Origin: Candidatus Poseidoniales archaeon
GTDB taxonomy: Archaea; Thermoplasmatota; Poseidoniia; Poseidoniales; Thalassarchaeaceae
Assembly: GCA_028283505.1 (NCBI GenBank)
Contig: JAPOFX010000008.1
Location: 1 to 64,000, forward strand
Direction: 5' to 3'
Length of the DNA stretch: 64,000 nt
Shown: positions 13,965 through 21,886 of the stretch, one piece after another
Layout: each line of letters starts with the position of its first letter
How positions within the stretch are numbered: position 1 is the stretch's first letter
Program-made: the position numbers and the translations under genes
The notes under the pieces: model-generated
What the model was told of the DNA's origin: nothing
What the model saw: the letters and a program-made list of their open reading frames with translations, nothing else
Database searches by the model: none

Positions 13965-14158
13965 TCCATCAGGAGTTTGTCCGGAACTTCACGCGAGTCA
14001 GTAGCTGAGTTGTTTCCCATTATCTCAACATATGCCTCGTAGCATACGTACTGGTCATCAACGACTATCGCCTCAGAGAATGTGATCGGTTTGCCTGTAA
14101 TAGAACAAATTGGGCCCAATTGCCCGGTCGCAGTAGAGAGCTTGTTAGCTTCGGGCAT
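13961..14158 (-). CDS. Small conserved-looking protein upstream of priS
   Basis: 65 aa, overlaps the priS start by 4 nt (translational coupling style); ICSITGKPITFSEAIVVDDQYVCYEAY. Confidence 0.5.
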   Translation of the reverse strand: MPEANKLSTATGQLGPICSITGKPITFSEAIVVDDQYVCYEAYVEIMGNNSATDSREVPDKLLMD

Positions 14159-14246
14159 GAACAGCCGCTGTAGCTTACACTATTCACTCTTACTACGGAG
14201 ATTTTTCACACGGAGGAATTTTCAACCAAATTGTGCTCGGGTGTTC

Positions 14247-15104
14247 ATGAGTGAATACCAATCCTACAGAGTAGGGCACTCGCCGGACCCTGATGATGCC
14301 TTCATGTTCCACGCAATGACCACAGGAGCCATAGATACAGGCTCAAGGAAATACGAGCATGTTCTTTTGGACATTGAGACTCTTAACAAACACGCTACGA
14401 ATGGGGACTACGAGGTGTCGGCTGTTAGTATCCATTCATTTCCCGAGATATCCGATAAATATCACCTCATGAATTGTGGTGCTTCGATGGGGGAGGGCTA
14501 CGGACCGATGATAATTTCAAGCAGGGACATAAACTTAGAAGAGGCAAAAAATCTCGTCTTTGCCATACCTGGAGTGGGCACCAGTGCCTATCTTGCACTT
14601 AGATTGGCCTTGGGGGATGTGAAGTTTGAAGTAGTTCCTTTCGATGAGATAATGCCATCAGTTCAGAGAGGCGAATATGACGTAGGTGTGATTATTCACG
14701 AAGGTCAATTGACATGGAAAGATGAGGGGGTCTGTTTGATTCTTGACTTGGGGATATGGTGGAATGAGAGGACCGGTCTGCCTCTCCCACTCGGGGGAAA
14801 TGTAGTCAGAAAGGACCTCGGAATGGAGTTGTGCAGTGAAATCACAAATGACGTAAGGAATAGTATTGAACACTCTCTCGACAACCCAGATGAAGCACTG
14901 AAATTCGCAAAGAAATGGGGACGAGGGATAGATGATTCCACAAATGAAAAGTTTGTTAGCATGTACGTTAACAGTAGGACTCTGGATTATGGTGAAGAAG
15001 GAAGAGAGGCGATAAGGCTCTTCCTAAAGGAAGGTCAAGCAATTGGAATGGTAAGAGAAGATCTTGATGTAGATTCAATAGTGTTTGTAGGATCGGGTGA
15101 GTGA
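14247..15104 (+). CDS. mqnD: 1,4-dihydroxy-6-naphthoate synthase-like (MqnD, futalosine pathway)
   Basis: YRVGHSPDPDDAFMFHAMTTGAID ... VSAVSIHSFPEISDKYHLMNCGASMGEGYGPMIIS ... LPLPLGGNVVRKDLG. ATG at 14247 within the ORF 14082..15104. Confidence 0.9.
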   Translation: MSEYQSYRVGHSPDPDDAFMFHAMTTGAIDTGSRKYEHVLLDIETLNKHATNGDYEVSAVSIHSFPEISDKYHLMNCGASMGEGYGPMIISSRDINLEEAKNLVFAIPGVGTSAYLALRLALGDVKFEVVPFDEIMPSVQRGEYDVGVIIHEGQLTWKDEGVCLILDLGIWWNERTGLPLPLGGNVVRKDLGMELCSEITNDVRNSIEHSLDNPDEALKFAKKWGRGIDDSTNEKFVSMYVNSRTLDYGEEGREAIRLFLKEGQAIGMVREDLDVDSIVFVGSGE

Positions 15105-15584
15105 ATGAGTGGCGGAAAACCTGAGGTTAGTGAGTTTGATTCCGTAGATCCGGCGCCACCTAGTGATGACAGGAATGTAGCTAGACTCAGAGTAACGATA
15201 TGCAACGAAGAGGAGAAGATGTTCCAGAGGATGCGTGCGCTGTTCGCATTGAGAAACATTGGTGGGAAGGATTCAGTTGAGGCTCTGGCGGCAGCCTTCT
15301 CATCGTCCTCAGCCTTATTGAAACATGAGATTGCATATGTCATGGGTCAAATGCAGGATTCTTCTGCTGTGCCTTTTTTGATAGAAAGGCTCGAAGATTT
15401 TGATGAAGATGTCATGGTAAGACATGAGGCTGCAGAGGCATTGGGAGCAATAGGGGACAGAACCGCATTGGGGGTTCTGGAGAGATTCAAGGATGATCGG
15501 GATACCGTAGTGGCAGAGTCGTGTGAGGTTGCTTTGGACCTACTGGACTGGGTGGCTAGTAAGAGACTGGACTACTCTGAGTGA
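15105..15584 (+). CDS. HEAT-repeat protein resembling the C-terminal half of deoxyhypusine hydroxylase
   Basis: FDSVDPAPPSDDRNVARLR...RALFALRNIGG...SALLKHEIAYVMGQMQDSSAVPFL...MVRHEAAEALGAIGD...VAESCEVALDLLDW. HE motifs at aa 74-75 and 107-108. Confidence 0.8.
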   Translation: MSGGKPEVSEFDSVDPAPPSDDRNVARLRVTICNEEEKMFQRMRALFALRNIGGKDSVEALAAAFSSSSALLKHEIAYVMGQMQDSSAVPFLIERLEDFDEDVMVRHEAAEALGAIGDRTALGVLERFKDDRDTVVAESCEVALDLLDWVASKRLDYSE

Positions 15585-16375
15585 ATATCCAGCCAAACTG
15601 GCTCATTTTCCATGCCGCATCCATCCTTTAGAAATCTCATCAATCCCTGAATGTCTTCATCTGACATTTTGTTTCTTACCTCGGTTTCAAAGTACTCCTC
15701 GACCCTTTCCTCGGGGAATCCCATCTTCTTGGAAGTTCTGTGAATAACTTCCTTCCTCCAATTATGATCGCTGTCGAAAGTCTCTACCTGCTCGATCATT
15801 TGAGAGTGCGCCTCGAGTAAAACCTCCCTTGGTGAATCTCTCCTTGCTACAAAGACACCGAAAACCATCGGCAGTCCAGTTACTCGGGTCCACTCTTCGC
15901 CTAAGTCCATTCTTACAAGCTCAGGACTGGATATTGACGCGAGTATGGCCCTGTCACCAATCAGCAAAGCTCCATCGCACTTCTCAAGCATGGAGTTGAT
16001 ATCCGGCCCTAACTCCACAAATTTAGGATCCAATCCGCGATTCTTTACTATCCAACTGAGCAAGACTTTCGATGTGGATGAGTCGGTTGGAAGTGCTATA
16101 TCCCTCATGCTCTCAATGGGGCGGTTCCCAAATAGTAAAACCGAGCCTACATTTCCATTGCTGACAATCCCTATTTCTGGCAGGAGCATCAATTCTTCAT
16201 TATTTAATGCATAGTCCGCAGAGGGAATAGGCGCCGCGATGCAATCCCTGCGCATCACGTGCCCGGTAAGCCAAGCAGGAGGGGCAGATAGGATAGTCCA
16301 CTCAGGATCTAAGCCGTCGAAAATTGGGTCGCAATTTGAGAATGAGACACGTCCGATGACTTTTTTCCAACTCAT
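15572..16375 (-). CDS. mqnA: Chorismate dehydratase-like (MqnA, futalosine pathway)
   Basis: IGRVSFSNCDPIFDGLDPEWTILSAPPAWLTGHVMRRDCIAAPIPSADYALNNEELMLLPEIGIVSNGNVGSVLLFGNRP. Confidence 0.87.
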   Translation of the reverse strand: MSWKKVIGRVSFSNCDPIFDGLDPEWTILSAPPAWLTGHVMRRDCIAAPIPSADYALNNEELMLLPEIGIVSNGNVGSVLLFGNRPIESMRDIALPTDSSTSKVLLSWIVKNRGLDPKFVELGPDINSMLEKCDGALLIGDRAILASISSPELVRMDLGEEWTRVTGLPMVFGVFVARRDSPREVLLEAHSQMIEQVETFDSDHNWRKEVIHRTSKKMGFPEERVEEYFETEVRNKMSDEDIQGLMRFLKDGCGMENEPVWLDIHSE

Positions 16376-16376
16376 A

Positions 16377-17588
16377 TCATCCCTCCAATGCAACTACTGG
16401 AAGTGATTTTGACGCCTTGACCTGCGTAAGACTGATTGTTTCGAATTTGGAGTATGAGGAGTTCCTCTTTACGGGGACGGAGCCTGCCGTCTCGATCATT
16501 CTTGCAAGTTCCTCAGAGCTTGTTGTAAGACTTGTTTTACTGCCAGCCTCGTGCATAATTTCCTCATGACCAACAGTTCCATCCAAATCGTCGGCACCGC
16601 AGTTAATGGCAAAGGAGGCAAGCTTGTCCCCAATATTCATCCTGTAAGCTTTGATGTGTGGAATGTTATCCAGCATTAACCTAGACACTGAAATCATCCT
16701 TATTGTCTCAAGCCCGGATGAGAGCTGAGCCTCCGGAAGTCTCGTCTTGTCAGGGAGAAATGGGTATGGGACAAAGCACTGGAATCCTCCTGACAAATCT
16801 TGTTGCTCTCTTAACCTTAAGAGGTGAGTGATCCTGTCCTCAATGGTCTCTATCGTTCCAAAGAGCATAGTACAGTTTGTCGGCATTCCGAGTGAGTGTG
16901 CGACTCCATGGATGTCAAGATATTCGTCTGAGGACTCCTTTCCCATACAGATCCTATCTCTAACACTGTCTACTAAAATTTCAGCTCCACCTCCCGGGAG
17001 GGAGTCAAGTCCTGACTTGGAAAGTACAGAAAGGGTATCTCTGATGGAAAGGGATGACCTTGTTGAAAGATGCTTTATCTCGACTGCGGTTAAAGCCTTG
17101 ATGTGGATTTCCGGGAACTCTTCCTTAACTGACGAAAAGAGCTGGCAGTATTCTTTTACCGTCCAAGTAGGGTGTAGGCCCCCGACTGTATGGACTTCGT
17201 CGATACTATCTGAGTGCGGCCGTATTCTATCCAGGTATTGTTCGGGGGTCAAGGTGTACGCATCGGGATGACGCGGGCCTTTTCTGAATGCACAAAACCT
17301 ACAAGCCAGGACACAAATATTGGTTGAGTTTACATGCAAATTTTCATTGAAAAATACGTGTTTTGAGAACCTTGATTTTTTTACCATGTTGGCAAGAGAA
17401 GTTACCGATGAAATCTCTTTCTCTTTCATCAAATCGACACCTTGGGAGAATGATAGTCTACCTTTAGAAACTAGAGTTTCTAGACAATTGAGGGCGATTT
17501 TACTGGAGCTCACTGCTATTGGAACCTCCATTAATGACAGCGCCTCCCTCCAATTGGGATTAGAGTATATCATCGTCTCGTCTGACAT
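16377..17588 (-). CDS. mqnE: Aminofutalosine synthase-like radical SAM enzyme (MqnE; MqnC possible)
   Basis: HVNSTNICVLACRFCAFRKGP (CxxxCxxC) ... EVHTVGGLHPTWTVKEY ... HIKALTAVEIKHLS ... GLDSLPGGGAEILVDSVRDRIC. Confidence 0.85.
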   Translation of the reverse strand: MSDETMIYSNPNWREALSLMEVPIAVSSSKIALNCLETLVSKGRLSFSQGVDLMKEKEISSVTSLANMVKKSRFSKHVFFNENLHVNSTNICVLACRFCAFRKGPRHPDAYTLTPEQYLDRIRPHSDSIDEVHTVGGLHPTWTVKEYCQLFSSVKEEFPEIHIKALTAVEIKHLSTRSSLSIRDTLSVLSKSGLDSLPGGGAEILVDSVRDRICMGKESSDEYLDIHGVAHSLGMPTNCTMLFGTIETIEDRITHLLRLREQQDLSGGFQCFVPYPFLPDKTRLPEAQLSSGLETIRMISVSRLMLDNIPHIKAYRMNIGDKLASFAINCGADDLDGTVGHEEIMHEAGSKTSLTTSSEELARMIETAGSVPVKRNSSYSKFETISLTQVKASKSLPVVALEG

Positions 17589-17688: not shown

Positions 17689-18525
17689 ATGAATTCAGCA
17701 GACCGGGCATCTGATATGACAACATCACAGCTACGTGAGCTGGCTTTGAGATGTCGAAGGCACATAGTGAAAATGATTCATGCCGCTGGTGCCGGCCATC
17801 CCGGGGGATCATTGTCCGCCATCGATATCATTGCCGCCCTTTATGGTAATCAACTAAGGTTCGATGCCAATAACCCAGGGTGGGAAGATAGGGATCGATT
17901 CATAATGAGTAAAGGGCATGCAAGCCCCGCAGTCTACTCAATTCTATTTGAAATGGGCTTCATCACTGAAGAGGACATGATGTCTTTCCGTAAGTTGGGT
18001 TCAGTTTGTCAGGGGCATGTGGATATGAAATGGACAAACGGCGTAGATTTTTCCGCGGGGAGCTTGGGTATGGGACTTTCTTTTGGTCTTGGATGTGCAT
18101 TAGCCGCAAGGATGGATTCCAGTAATCGTGATATCTGGGTAATGGTAGGTGATGGAGAAATACAAGAGGGTCAGTTTTGGGAGGCTGCAATGGCGGCTGA
18201 TTTTCATTCCGTAGGAAAACTGAATCTTATTGTCGATAGGAATCGAATCCAGAACGATGATTTTGTAGAGGTCCAAATGGAGGTCGGGGACGTCGGGGCT
18301 AAGCTTTCCTCGTTCGGCTGGGATGTGATGGAAATCGACGGGCATGATATGGAGCAGGTATCTCAGGCAATTCAATGGTCTTCGTCAAAGACCGATTCTC
18401 CGACGGCGATCGTAGCTCATACGATTAAGGGGAAGGGCGTTTCTTTCATGGAAGATAATCCTTCATTCCATGGTAAAGCTCCTAACAATGGCGAGCTGGA
18501 AATAGCATTGGAGGAGTTGTCATGA
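17689..18525 (+). CDS. Transketolase, N-terminal subunit
   Basis: HAAGAGHPGGSLSAIDIIAALYG ... DRFIMSKGHASPAVYSIL ... GSLGMGLSFGLGCALAARM ... VMVGDGEIQEGQFWEAAM. Confidence 0.94.
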   Translation: MNSADRASDMTTSQLRELALRCRRHIVKMIHAAGAGHPGGSLSAIDIIAALYGNQLRFDANNPGWEDRDRFIMSKGHASPAVYSILFEMGFITEEDMMSFRKLGSVCQGHVDMKWTNGVDFSAGSLGMGLSFGLGCALAARMDSSNRDIWVMVGDGEIQEGQFWEAAMAADFHSVGKLNLIVDRNRIQNDDFVEVQMEVGDVGAKLSSFGWDVMEIDGHDMEQVSQAIQWSSSKTDSPTAIVAHTIKGKGVSFMEDNPSFHGKAPNNGELEIALEELS

Positions 18526-19463
18526 GTGCTCCCTCAGCGGGTGGTGCCTCGAGAGACGGATACGGCTCCGCATTACTGCGCTTAGCAAGTGACCCGCGTG
18601 TCGTGGTACTGGAGGCGGATCTTGGAAAATCAACAAAATCTTGTCTTTTTAGAGAAGCTAATCCGGAAAGAACAGTGTCTCTCGGCATTGCAGAACAGAA
18701 TATGATCTTGGTGGCCGCCGGAATGGCGTCATCAGGGAAGATTCCATTTGCGAGTACATTTGCAATTTTTACAGAGAGGGGATTTGAACAAGTTAGGAAT
18801 GGTGTTGCCAGACCAGGCTTGGTAGTGCACCTTTGTGGTAGTCATGGAGGCATCCATACTGGAACTGACGGAAGTAGCGCTCAGTCTATAGAGGATCTGG
18901 CATTGTATAGGACAATACCCGGAATGACAGTTATCCACCCATGTGACGACCTCTCATCGGAGGAGTTGACTATTCAGTTACTTGATCATGATAAGCCTTC
19001 ATACACTAGAACAGCGAGAAATAAGACACCAAGAATGTACGATGAGGAAAGCTGCAAGAAGCTGAAAATTGGCAAGGGGTCGAAACTTCGTGAAGGATCT
19101 GACGTCGCAATAATCGCTTGCGGAGTGATGGTCTCCGAGGCCATCAGGGCAGCTGAGGAGCTGTCAAAAGATGGAATCGGAGCTACAGTTGTCGACATGC
19201 ATACAATCAAACCGCTCGATACAGAATTGATTGATGAGCTAGTCAGAGAATGCAAGGGAATTGTCACGGCAGAAGATCATTCGGTGATCGGTGGACTAGG
19301 TAGTGCGGTCTCCGAGCATGTTTCGTATACCGGAGGGGTTCCGATAAGGATGGTCGGGGTTACTGACAGATTCGGGGAAAGTGGCGAGCCGGGAGAGCTA
19401 ATGGACCTCATGGGGATAACTTACAGGGATATCTTGGATTCATGCAATTCTTTACTGTCTTGA
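18522..19463 (+). CDS. Transketolase, C-terminal subunit
   Basis: VVVLEADLGKSTKSCLF...RTVSLGIAEQNMILVAAGMASSGKIPFASTFAIF...GSHGGIHTGTDGSSAQSIEDLALYRTIPGM; overlaps the N subunit by 4 nt. Confidence 0.94.
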   Translation: MSAPSAGGASRDGYGSALLRLASDPRVVVLEADLGKSTKSCLFREANPERTVSLGIAEQNMILVAAGMASSGKIPFASTFAIFTERGFEQVRNGVARPGLVVHLCGSHGGIHTGTDGSSAQSIEDLALYRTIPGMTVIHPCDDLSSEELTIQLLDHDKPSYTRTARNKTPRMYDEESCKKLKIGKGSKLREGSDVAIIACGVMVSEAIRAAEELSKDGIGATVVDMHTIKPLDTELIDELVRECKGIVTAEDHSVIGGLGSAVSEHVSYTGGVPIRMVGVTDRFGESGEPGELMDLMGITYRDILDSCNSLLS

Positions 19464-19499: not shown

Positions 19500-20369
19500 A
19501 TGAAGTACCCAAACGGCCGAAGAGCCATGGAGGGCTCTGACAAGATAAAGGGAGTCCTTGATGGGTCGATCGACCCACAGGAGATTAGTGGAGATAAAAA
19601 ACTCTATTCCATGGCTGAGAGGATATATGGAAGAGATGCTTTGGAAGAGATGGGGGTTGAGCCTCCAGTCAAACCACCTGAGAGCGGCATTAAAGCAATT
19701 AATGGAAATGGCGGAGTAGAGATACCAATCAAAGAAGCCAGGACTGCGATAAGTCTTGACTCCCCAGAGAAACCTCGCAGAAGAGTTGTCTTGCCTATCA
19801 TTATGTTCGCACTACTGATAATTACTGGGTTCAACGTCGTAGTCGGGGTAGGTACTGTTCTGCCATTTTGTGAAGATGAGCCTCCAGAACAGGAGCTAGA
19901 ATTCAGCTCTAGTGCGCAGTTGCAGAATAACACTCTCTTCGTTGTCTGGAAGATGACTGGATTAAATAACGGCTCATCCTACACTTTAGAGTGGCAAGTT
20001 TTTCAGAATGGATCGAGCGATATAATAGACATTGGCAATTCAAGTTGGGTATCAGATAATGATCCAGTTAGGTTCGATAATAGAAATTGGTATATCGAGA
20101 CCCCTCCTTACTCGTATTTATCGACGCTTTACGAGGATGATTTGGTGGTTGCGTTCTCTAATGGGTCGGGAGATTCCATCACAACTCTTTCCGATGGAAT
20201 AAATCCGGTTTCTTATTGTGAGTCGAACACCCGGTTAATTTGGACCGAATATCAGGATTTTAGGAGTAGTGGCGCATGGGGAGAACCCGGCACTGGTGGA
20301 ATCGCAGATGGTGCATTGATGATGTTATTTGCATTGATGATGGTTGTGACTGCGAGGAAGAGAAGCTAG
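19500..20369 (+). CDS. Membrane-anchored protein, TM at each end of the extracytoplasmic part
   Basis: VVLPIIMFALLIITGFNVVVGV TM; sequon-rich domain; C-terminal ADGALMMLFALMMVVTARKRS. Confidence 0.65.
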   Translation: MKYPNGRRAMEGSDKIKGVLDGSIDPQEISGDKKLYSMAERIYGRDALEEMGVEPPVKPPESGIKAINGNGGVEIPIKEARTAISLDSPEKPRRRVVLPIIMFALLIITGFNVVVGVGTVLPFCEDEPPEQELEFSSSAQLQNNTLFVVWKMTGLNNGSSYTLEWQVFQNGSSDIIDIGNSSWVSDNDPVRFDNRNWYIETPPYSYLSTLYEDDLVVAFSNGSGDSITTLSDGINPVSYCESNTRLIWTEYQDFRSSGAWGEPGTGGIADGALMMLFALMMVVTARKRS

Positions 20370-21886
20370 TACATCCTGGCCAGATGTTGCTTTTTTGTTG
20401 TCTCCTTTCCCGTGATTACGCATTTCCTGGGTTTTTCATATTCATCCACACATTCTCCAAGCATGGTGAGTCCTGAAAGCCTCTCTAGAATTTCTGCATC
20501 GGAATCAGTTCCACAGAATGGGAATGAATACACCATTCCATCTATTATCGGAGATGAGAATTGATGTCCATCCCCCTCATTTGAAATCTCGGGCAGTTCT
20601 GATACGAGATCGGAGAAATGGCTACTAGCCCTAACTCTAAGCTCGTCTGCAACAGATATCAACGCTGAATTTACGGAGTTGACGATGTCGCTTATCGGAC
20701 TCTCGTATTTCCTACCTATTCTCTCGGATATAATACAAGTTCCCGAATCAATATCCCTCGGCCCCAGCTCGAGCCTTATTGGTACTCCTTTGATTTCCCA
20801 GTCATAGTGCTTAACACCGGGCCTAACGTCCCTATCATCCACGAATGTCCTCAATCCAGCATCATTGAGAGTATCTCTGATCTTATGAATTTCAGGTATT
20901 ACATCATCCCTGACGTGGGAGGCAATGGGTAGTAGGACTACTTGGTAAGGTGCGACTGCTGGAGGCATTATCAGTCCCTTATCATCCCCATGCATTCCGA
21001 CCAATGACCCGAGCAGCCTCTCGGACATACCAAATGTGGTCTGATGGCAAAACTGATTCTCCCCGTTTTGGTCCTCGTACTTGAGATCGAAGGCCCTAGC
21101 CCATTGATCCCTGTAATGGTGATAAGTTGCGACCTGAAGAGTCCTCCCATTTGGCATTACGACATCGGCAGCCATTGTGTACCACGCACCGGGAAATGTA
21201 TCCCACACAGGTCTCTTGGATACAAGGCTCGGAAGACATAGGTCGTGCAGAATCCTTTGAACCATGGTCGCATCCTCGGAGATTTGCTCTGTGGCCCCTT
21301 TCTCATCCTTATGGACCGTGTGCGCCTCAAAAAAGTGGATCTCTCTCACTCTGATGAATGACCTGGTTTGTTTGGTCTCATACCTGAAGGTATTGACTAT
21401 TTGGAATGTTTTCAGGGGAAGGTCAGAATGACTTCTGACCCAAAGCGAGAACATGGTATACATAGGCGTCTCAGATGTGGGTCTGAGAAACATGGGCGAT
21501 TCCAACTCATTCTCGCCCCCATGAGTTACCCAATATACTTCTTTTTTGAATCCTGAATCCTCTTCCTCCATCCTGAGTTCAGAGGGGTCAACCCCTGCTT
21601 CTCTTGCGGCCTTCAGCCTCGAGACTAGCTTGTTCTCCTTATCCAGAAGATTCTCAGGGACTAACAATGGGAATCTATGTTCATGGTGGCCTGTAAGTGC
21701 CATCTGTTTCCTAGTCAAACCATCGATAAGAGACATCGCCTTGAGGCCATAGGGCTTCCACACATCCATTCCCTTAATCGGATACCTTTTATCCACCAAA
21801 TCAGCAATCTCAACAATTGAAGGGTACCAGGAGTTGAAATCTGATTTTGGAGGGATTCCCCTCTTGGCCTTTCCCGGAGCGCCCAT
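20366..21886 (-). CDS. proS: Prolyl-tRNA synthetase (archaeal/eukaryotic type)
   Basis: DFNSWYPSIVEIADLVDKRYPIKGMDVWKPYGLKAM ... LRPTSETPMYTMFSLWVRSHSDLPLKTFQIVNTFRYETKQTRSFIRVREI. Confidence 0.96.
   Translation of the reverse strand: MGAPGKAKRGIPPKSDFNSWYPSIVEIADLVDKRYPIKGMDVWKPYGLKAMSLIDGLTRKQMALTGHHEHRFPLLVPENLLDKENKLVSRLKAAREAGVDPSELRMEEEDSGFKKEVYWVTHGGENELESPMFLRPTSETPMYTMFSLWVRSHSDLPLKTFQIVNTFRYETKQTRSFIRVREIHFFEAHTVHKDEKGATEQISEDATMVQRILHDLCLPSLVSKRPVWDTFPGAWYTMAADVVMPNGRTLQVATYHHYRDQWARAFDLKYEDQNGENQFCHQTTFGMSERLLGSLVGMHGDDKGLIMPPAVAPYQVVLLPIASHVRDDVIPEIHKIRDTLNDAGLRTFVDDRDVRPGVKHYDWEIKGVPIRLELGPRDIDSGTCIISERIGRKYESPISDIVNSVNSALISVADELRVRASSHFSDLVSELPEISNEGDGHQFSSPIIDGMVYSFPFCGTDSDAEILERLSGLTMLGECVDEYEKPRKCVITGKETTKKQHLARMY

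Follow-up and report, generated by a model that had tools for sequence, protein, structure and literature searches.

Deoxyhypusine hydroxylase (DOHH) catalyses the last step of hypusine formation on a translation factor in animals and fungi. The eukaryotic enzyme (human 4d4z, yeast Lia1) is a fused double of about 300 aa, with 8 HEAT repeats, four His-Glu (HE) motifs per chain and a pseudo-symmetric active site. Mutagenesis and structure of the human enzyme have identified H56, H89, E90, H207, H240 and E241 as the residues that anchor the diiron centre, three from each half (two His, one Glu), and the deoxyhypusine chain is bound by E57, E90, E208 and E241 together with two glycines (PMC9117371). 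Among archaea, the aIF5A of Sulfolobus is truly hypusinated (PMC6105217), and hence an archaeal hydroxylase step must exist; no DOHH-like gene has been reported there and the hydroxylase is unidentified. Papers from 2016, 2018, 2020 and 2021 found no archaeal DOHH homologue, though chemical detection of hypusine in some archaea goes back a long time (PMC5178350, PMC6105217, PMC7773846, PMC8153317), and the open-access literature that we searched holds no later report of an archaeal DOHH, including in Asgard or Poseidoniales; subscription papers and preprints lay outside this scope. To our knowledge, no other DOHH with a half-size architecture has been described.

The gene considered here lies in a window, by which we mean the whole analysed stretch of 64,000 nucleotides, whose named relatives place its source among the Marine Group II archaea (Ca. 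Poseidoniales, Thalassarchaeaceae). It provides a concrete candidate gene for the missing archaeal hydroxylation step, in archaea that are among the most abundant of the surface ocean. The relevant features are as follows.

14082..15104, + strand: MqnD-type gene of the futalosine (menaquinone) pathway, immediately before the DOHH gene with no gap between stop and start
15105..15584, + strand: half-size DOHH homologue, 159 aa, four predicted HEAT hairpins, the only copy in the genome
15141..15161, + strand: SVDPAPP arm, aa 13-19, counterpart of the eukaryotic DOHH inter-half linker
15324..15329, + strand: first His-Glu motif, H74-E75, aligning with human H56-E57 and H207-E208
15423..15428, + strand: second His-Glu motif, H107-E108, aligning with human H89-E90 and H240-E241
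15572..16393, - strand: MqnA-type gene (PF02621, VitK2_biosynth), convergent, sharing 13 bp with the DOHH gene at their 3' ends

Like eukaryotic DOHH, the protein has the four-HEAT fold of one half, two HE motifs (aa 74-75 and aa 107-108) spaced 33 residues apart, a Gly seven residues past the first His and the SVDPAPP linker, and it co-occurs with DHS and IF5A. It is 44% identical to the human N-half and 49% to the human C-half, which are 40% identical to each other. In contrast to the eukaryotic enzyme, it is a single half with the linker at its N terminus, so that two chains would be needed to make a site. An initial annotation, made from sequence alone, had described the 159-aa ORF, several of its peptides, the linker plus one half and the spacing of 33, and all of these are present where it placed them. 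It had also stated that an mqnD gene ends right before the ATG (TGAATG), leaving no N-terminal half. This held as well: the ATG abuts the TGA of the preceding ORF (14082-15104, +), which is of the VitK2_biosynth/MqnD type (Pfam PF02621, E=4.1e-67; its real start is perhaps downstream of 14082), and a search of the whole source genome for an N-terminal DOHH half elsewhere gave one match, the 159-aa gene itself.

Homology, fold and active site

The homology of the 159-aa protein to DOHH is secure, beyond chance or generic HEAT similarity. When all PDB chains are searched with phmmer, its top match is human DOHH (4d4z; 251 bits, E=2.5e-74), with the C-half matched end to end over aa 2-148, SVDPAPP linker included (138.9 bits), and the N-half matched less strongly over aa 25-150 (111.4 bits); the best single printed stretch of a non-DOHH chain, an artificial alphaRep, reaches 46 bits. 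Likewise, an HMM built from archaeal halves only (121 sequences) gives the human C-half 186 bits and the N-half 159 bits, and with the same HMM an alphaRep fragment scores 58 bits and the shuffled human C-half no more than 4.6 bits. Pfam and NCBIfam label the protein only with HEAT_2, HEAT_PBS and sub-threshold phycobilin-lyase families, and because neither returned a DOHH model these generic labels are uninformative. Artificial alphaRep proteins and the natural HEAT_PBS proteins and phycobilin lyases (CpcE, NblB) do share HEAT hairpins with it and rank second by fold and sequence, but their aligned stretches lack the His-Glu motifs and the DPAPP arm and score much lower.

The fold, as predicted, agrees with that of a DOHH half. 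An AlphaFold2 monomer model, computed from a 41-sequence alignment, has a mean pLDDT of 90.3, a pTM of 0.82 and eight helices forming four HEAT hairpins. In a Foldseek comparison of this model with the PDB, the two top places go to human DOHH chains (E 2.5e-11 and 4.4e-11; 48-50% identity; TM 0.80-0.82 when normalised by query), and the next matches are artificial HEAT proteins with E of about 1e-4.

Within the alignment, the two HE motifs superpose column for column on human H56E57/H89E90 and H207E208/H240E241. The counterparts of the human active site are H74, H107 and E108, which make up a 2-His-1-Glu set, together with E75 and G81 (the two human glycines are written G65 and G214 in PMC9117371; the mutually equivalent residues by alignment are G63 and G214). 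Each of the five positions H74, E75, G81, H107 and E108 is invariant in 121/121 archaeal homologues, which represent 93 distinct sequences in three deep clades. Because each human half supplies a 2-His-1-Glu set, and all of the equivalents are present here, one archaeal half holds one whole iron site. A symmetric homodimer would then hold everything present in the active site of human DOHH, an inference made without a dimer model or iron-binding data.

The arm is also highly conserved, with P6, S9, F11 and S13-P18 invariant in the alignment and D15-P16 found in every aligned archaeal homologue, yet the region that contains it (residues 1-20) has low pLDDT (50-65) in the monomer model. This combination fits a segment that may take on a fixed structure only once the dimer forms or substrate binds. 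The gene as a whole is under strong purifying selection; comparison with its two nearest relatives gives dN 0.014/dS 0.78 and dN 0.019/dS 0.96, or a dN/dS of about 0.02.

Distribution, pathway partners and oxygen

A class-wide sample places the half-size gene in 198 of 294 Poseidoniia genomes, in both Poseidoniales families, and in 0/23 genomes of a third Poseidoniia family outside Poseidoniales (f3), which we infer is probably Marine Group III. About one third of Poseidoniia genomes are thus without it, keeping DHS and mostly aIF5A. Beyond Poseidoniia, a phylum sample yielded nine carrier genomes from six further families, and a closer look at two other Thermoplasmatota clades found it in 5/7 genomes of one class and 4/4 of one order. 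Every copy among the Thermoplasmatota homologues examined is half-size and none is a fused, double-length DOHH; the half-size architecture is therefore real and general among the Thermoplasmatota carriers seen. Two apparent fused forms, long ORFs of 666 and 320 aa (L125, L127), were rejected as one DOHH half after low-complexity read-through.

The survey covered Thermoplasmatota and did not extend to other archaea or to bacterial chromosomes. A contig scan kept 80 loci, all from marine Poseidoniales-type archaea as far as names tell. Viral contigs contained no relative when queried with the window protein, the human N-half and a mixed alignment, and plasmid and phage collections gave no match to the half-DOHH.

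The gene is often absent and in-frame stops interrupt a few copies, as would be expected if the hydroxylation refines deoxyhypusine without being essential; lia1 mutants of yeast are viable (PMC8153317). The copies with in-frame stops in some Poseidoniales genomes (G120, G255, G036, G041) and the frequent absence in several genera suggest repeated loss.

The partners expected of a DOHH are present. DHS occurs in 290/294 Poseidoniia genomes and aIF5A in 228/294, and both co-occur with the half-DOHH in nearly all carriers; one single-contig genome (G002) has all three genes. The source genome has two DHS-family genes, the better of which matches solved DHS (E=9e-80) and has its catalytic lysine in an SWGK motif. 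Two DHS matches are seen in most Poseidoniia genomes, and on contig C18 of genome G000 (19532-20425; L138:5524-6510, - strand) a further, divergent member of the DHS family (PF01916, E=4.2e-38) lies beside canonical DHS; this second gene may be homospermidine synthase-like or a regulatory subunit, which is speculative.

aIF5A was not found in the source assembly, which is 89% complete. The contig that carries the window (C22) ends at 65,426, and in a same-genus syntenic contig aIF5A lies about 0.6 kb beyond the matching point, which shows by synteny that the absence is a contig break only. Ten of 16 members of the source genus have aIF5A, and those that were read show a normal SKPGKHGSAKAR loop; an aIF5A with the SKPGKHG loop is found in DOHH-positive genomes of every clade examined. 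A coevolution signal was sought in this loop and none was found, since DOHH-positive and DOHH-negative Poseidoniales share SKPGKHGS and loop variation within Poseidoniales does not track DOHH presence. The loop, being alike in carriers and non-carriers, therefore neither supports nor contradicts the assignment of aIF5A as substrate. As a separate observation, family f3, which lacks DOHH, has SKPGKHGE in this loop (L112-L123), and elsewhere the sequence is SKPGKHG(S/A/G) (Poseidoniales: L139).

The initial annotation had named three outcomes that would refute a DOHH identity: a protein no closer to DOHH than to generic HEAT-repeat or PBS-lyase proteins, HE motifs that fail to superpose on the diiron ligands, and a genome without aIF5A or DHS. 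All three were examined and none refuted it. The protein is DOHH-like both by sequence (phmmer, archaeal HMM) and by fold (Foldseek), the motifs align with the ligands, and DHS is present, with aIF5A missing only through the break in the assembly.

It is also worth asking how the gene relates to aerobic life, as DOHH needs O2 and carriers of the half-DOHH are thus expected to respire. Outside Poseidoniia, full-length COX1 is found in 9/9 DOHH-positive and 11/71 DOHH-negative genomes (Fisher p=7e-7, uncorrected for phylogeny), and the source genome carries COX1. Of 12 tested in a further comparison, one DOHH-positive Poseidoniales MAG gave no COX1 match, and DOHH-negative Poseidoniia possess COX1 as well. 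The half-DOHH is associated with aerobic genomes, with the reservation that no phylogenetic correction was applied.

A putative homodimeric hydroxylase and rival explanations

The explanation that we favour, with a probability of roughly 0.77, is that the protein is a deoxyhypusine hydroxylase that works on aIF5A as a diiron homodimer, each subunit corresponding to one half of the eukaryotic enzyme. The homology, the fold, the five active-site positions, the coexistence with DHS and aIF5A and the aerobic association are established; the dimer, the iron, the O2 chemistry, the substrate and the activity are inferred. As we picture it, the 159-aa subunit, with its four HEAT hairpins, would carry one 2-His-1-Glu iron site (H74, H107, E108) together with E75, a Glu on the substrate side. 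A pair of identical subunits, related by a two-fold axis, would stand in for the N-half and C-half of the human enzyme and unite two irons, one per subunit, as a diiron-peroxo site. Given O2 and a supply of electrons, this site would hydroxylate the deoxyhypusine that DHS places on the lysine of the aIF5A SKPGKHG loop, yielding true hypusine, and the SVDPAPP arm would probably strap the dimer or help in substrate binding. All lineages have a single half-size copy and no fused form was seen, so keeping the diiron site would require self-assembly. The proposal in the initial annotation that a homodimer makes true hypusine thus remains plausible, its dimerisation and activity being inferred. Against this reading, the neighbouring genes belong to menaquinone biosynthesis and are not DHS or aIF5A, and the DOHH-less Poseidoniia, including all 23 f3 genomes, retain DHS and mostly aIF5A.

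The best surviving alternative, which we consider unlikely, is that the protein is a true diiron hydroxylase of the DOHH fold now working on a different substrate, such as one in a menaquinone maturation step. In its favour, the gene has a fixed place behind mqnD, which is immediately 5' of it in 104/105 testable Poseidoniales loci from both families, with stop and start abutting in the window, and the half-DOHH can be lost while DHS and aIF5A remain. However, mqnD is upstream in 0/9 loci outside Poseidoniales, and those nine homologues, without that neighbour, keep all active-site residues and the linker. Because the pairing is found only in Poseidoniales, it is a lineage-specific arrangement and as such weak evidence for a menaquinone role, yet it keeps this rival alive. 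Also against it, the equivalents of the DOHH substrate-binding residues (E57/E90/E208/E241, G63/G214) are invariant, and DHS and aIF5A accompany the half-DOHH in nearly all carriers. No extra hydroxylase is known to be needed in the futalosine pathway.

Slightly less probable again is a catalytically idle four-HEAT scaffold with a structural or regulatory iron site, or a degenerate relic of DOHH. The half length relative to the characterised enzyme could be read this way, and the sporadic loss and the few copies with in-frame stops suggest dispensability. Nonetheless, both HE motifs and G81 are fully invariant across 121 sequences and dN/dS is near 0.02, which is not the pattern of a relic, and no residue needed by the human half-sites is missing from the archaeal protein. 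Finally, a generic HEAT or PBS-lyase-like repeat protein with coincidental HE motifs, to which only the generic Pfam and NCBIfam labels point, is all but excluded, as the DOHH score per half is about three times that of the best generic stretch, the aligned artificial HEAT proteins have no HE motifs and the DOHH-specific linker is conserved in the archaeal proteins.

Evolutionary origin and gene neighbourhood

The initial annotation had also raised the possibilities of a transfer from eukaryotes and of a relic or precursor of the duplicated eukaryotic enzyme. Half-DOHH copies outside Poseidoniales are 39-57% identical to the window protein, about as distant as the human halves are, and because the archaeal copies differ among themselves as much as they differ from the human halves, a recent eukaryote-to-archaeon transfer is unlikely. 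A relic does not fit the invariance described above. Whether the archaeal half is of the unduplicated ancestor type or an early derivative of a C-half is not resolved by the tree, in which joining both human halves (AU p=0.39) and grouping them with the outer archaeal clade (AU p=0.30) are both accommodated; the tree is weak, as it includes only one eukaryote (human) and both human branches are long.

A bolder reading can be entertained, one against which we would at present lean slightly: that the archaeal protein is the original unduplicated DOHH, a C2-symmetric homodimeric diiron hydroxylase, that the fused eukaryotic enzyme arose from it by tandem duplication, and that hypusine hydroxylation began in aerobic archaea. 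Were the homodimeric hydroxylase confirmed, it would offer a symmetric model for how a pseudo-symmetric diiron oxygenase originates through duplication followed by fusion. It would also be a small and easily handled counterpart of a human enzyme of interest as a drug and disease target.

Two features of the surrounding DNA can be added. The half-DOHH gene is enclosed, over 14082-17588 of the window, by a futalosine-pathway menaquinone gene cluster of MqnD-, MqnA- and MqnE/C-type genes, in which an MqnE/MqnC-type radical SAM gene adjoins the two PF02621 genes. At 17689-18522 and 18522-19463, transketolase is split into two adjacent genes, the N-terminal half identified by NCBIfam and the C-terminal half judged from its ORF sequence.
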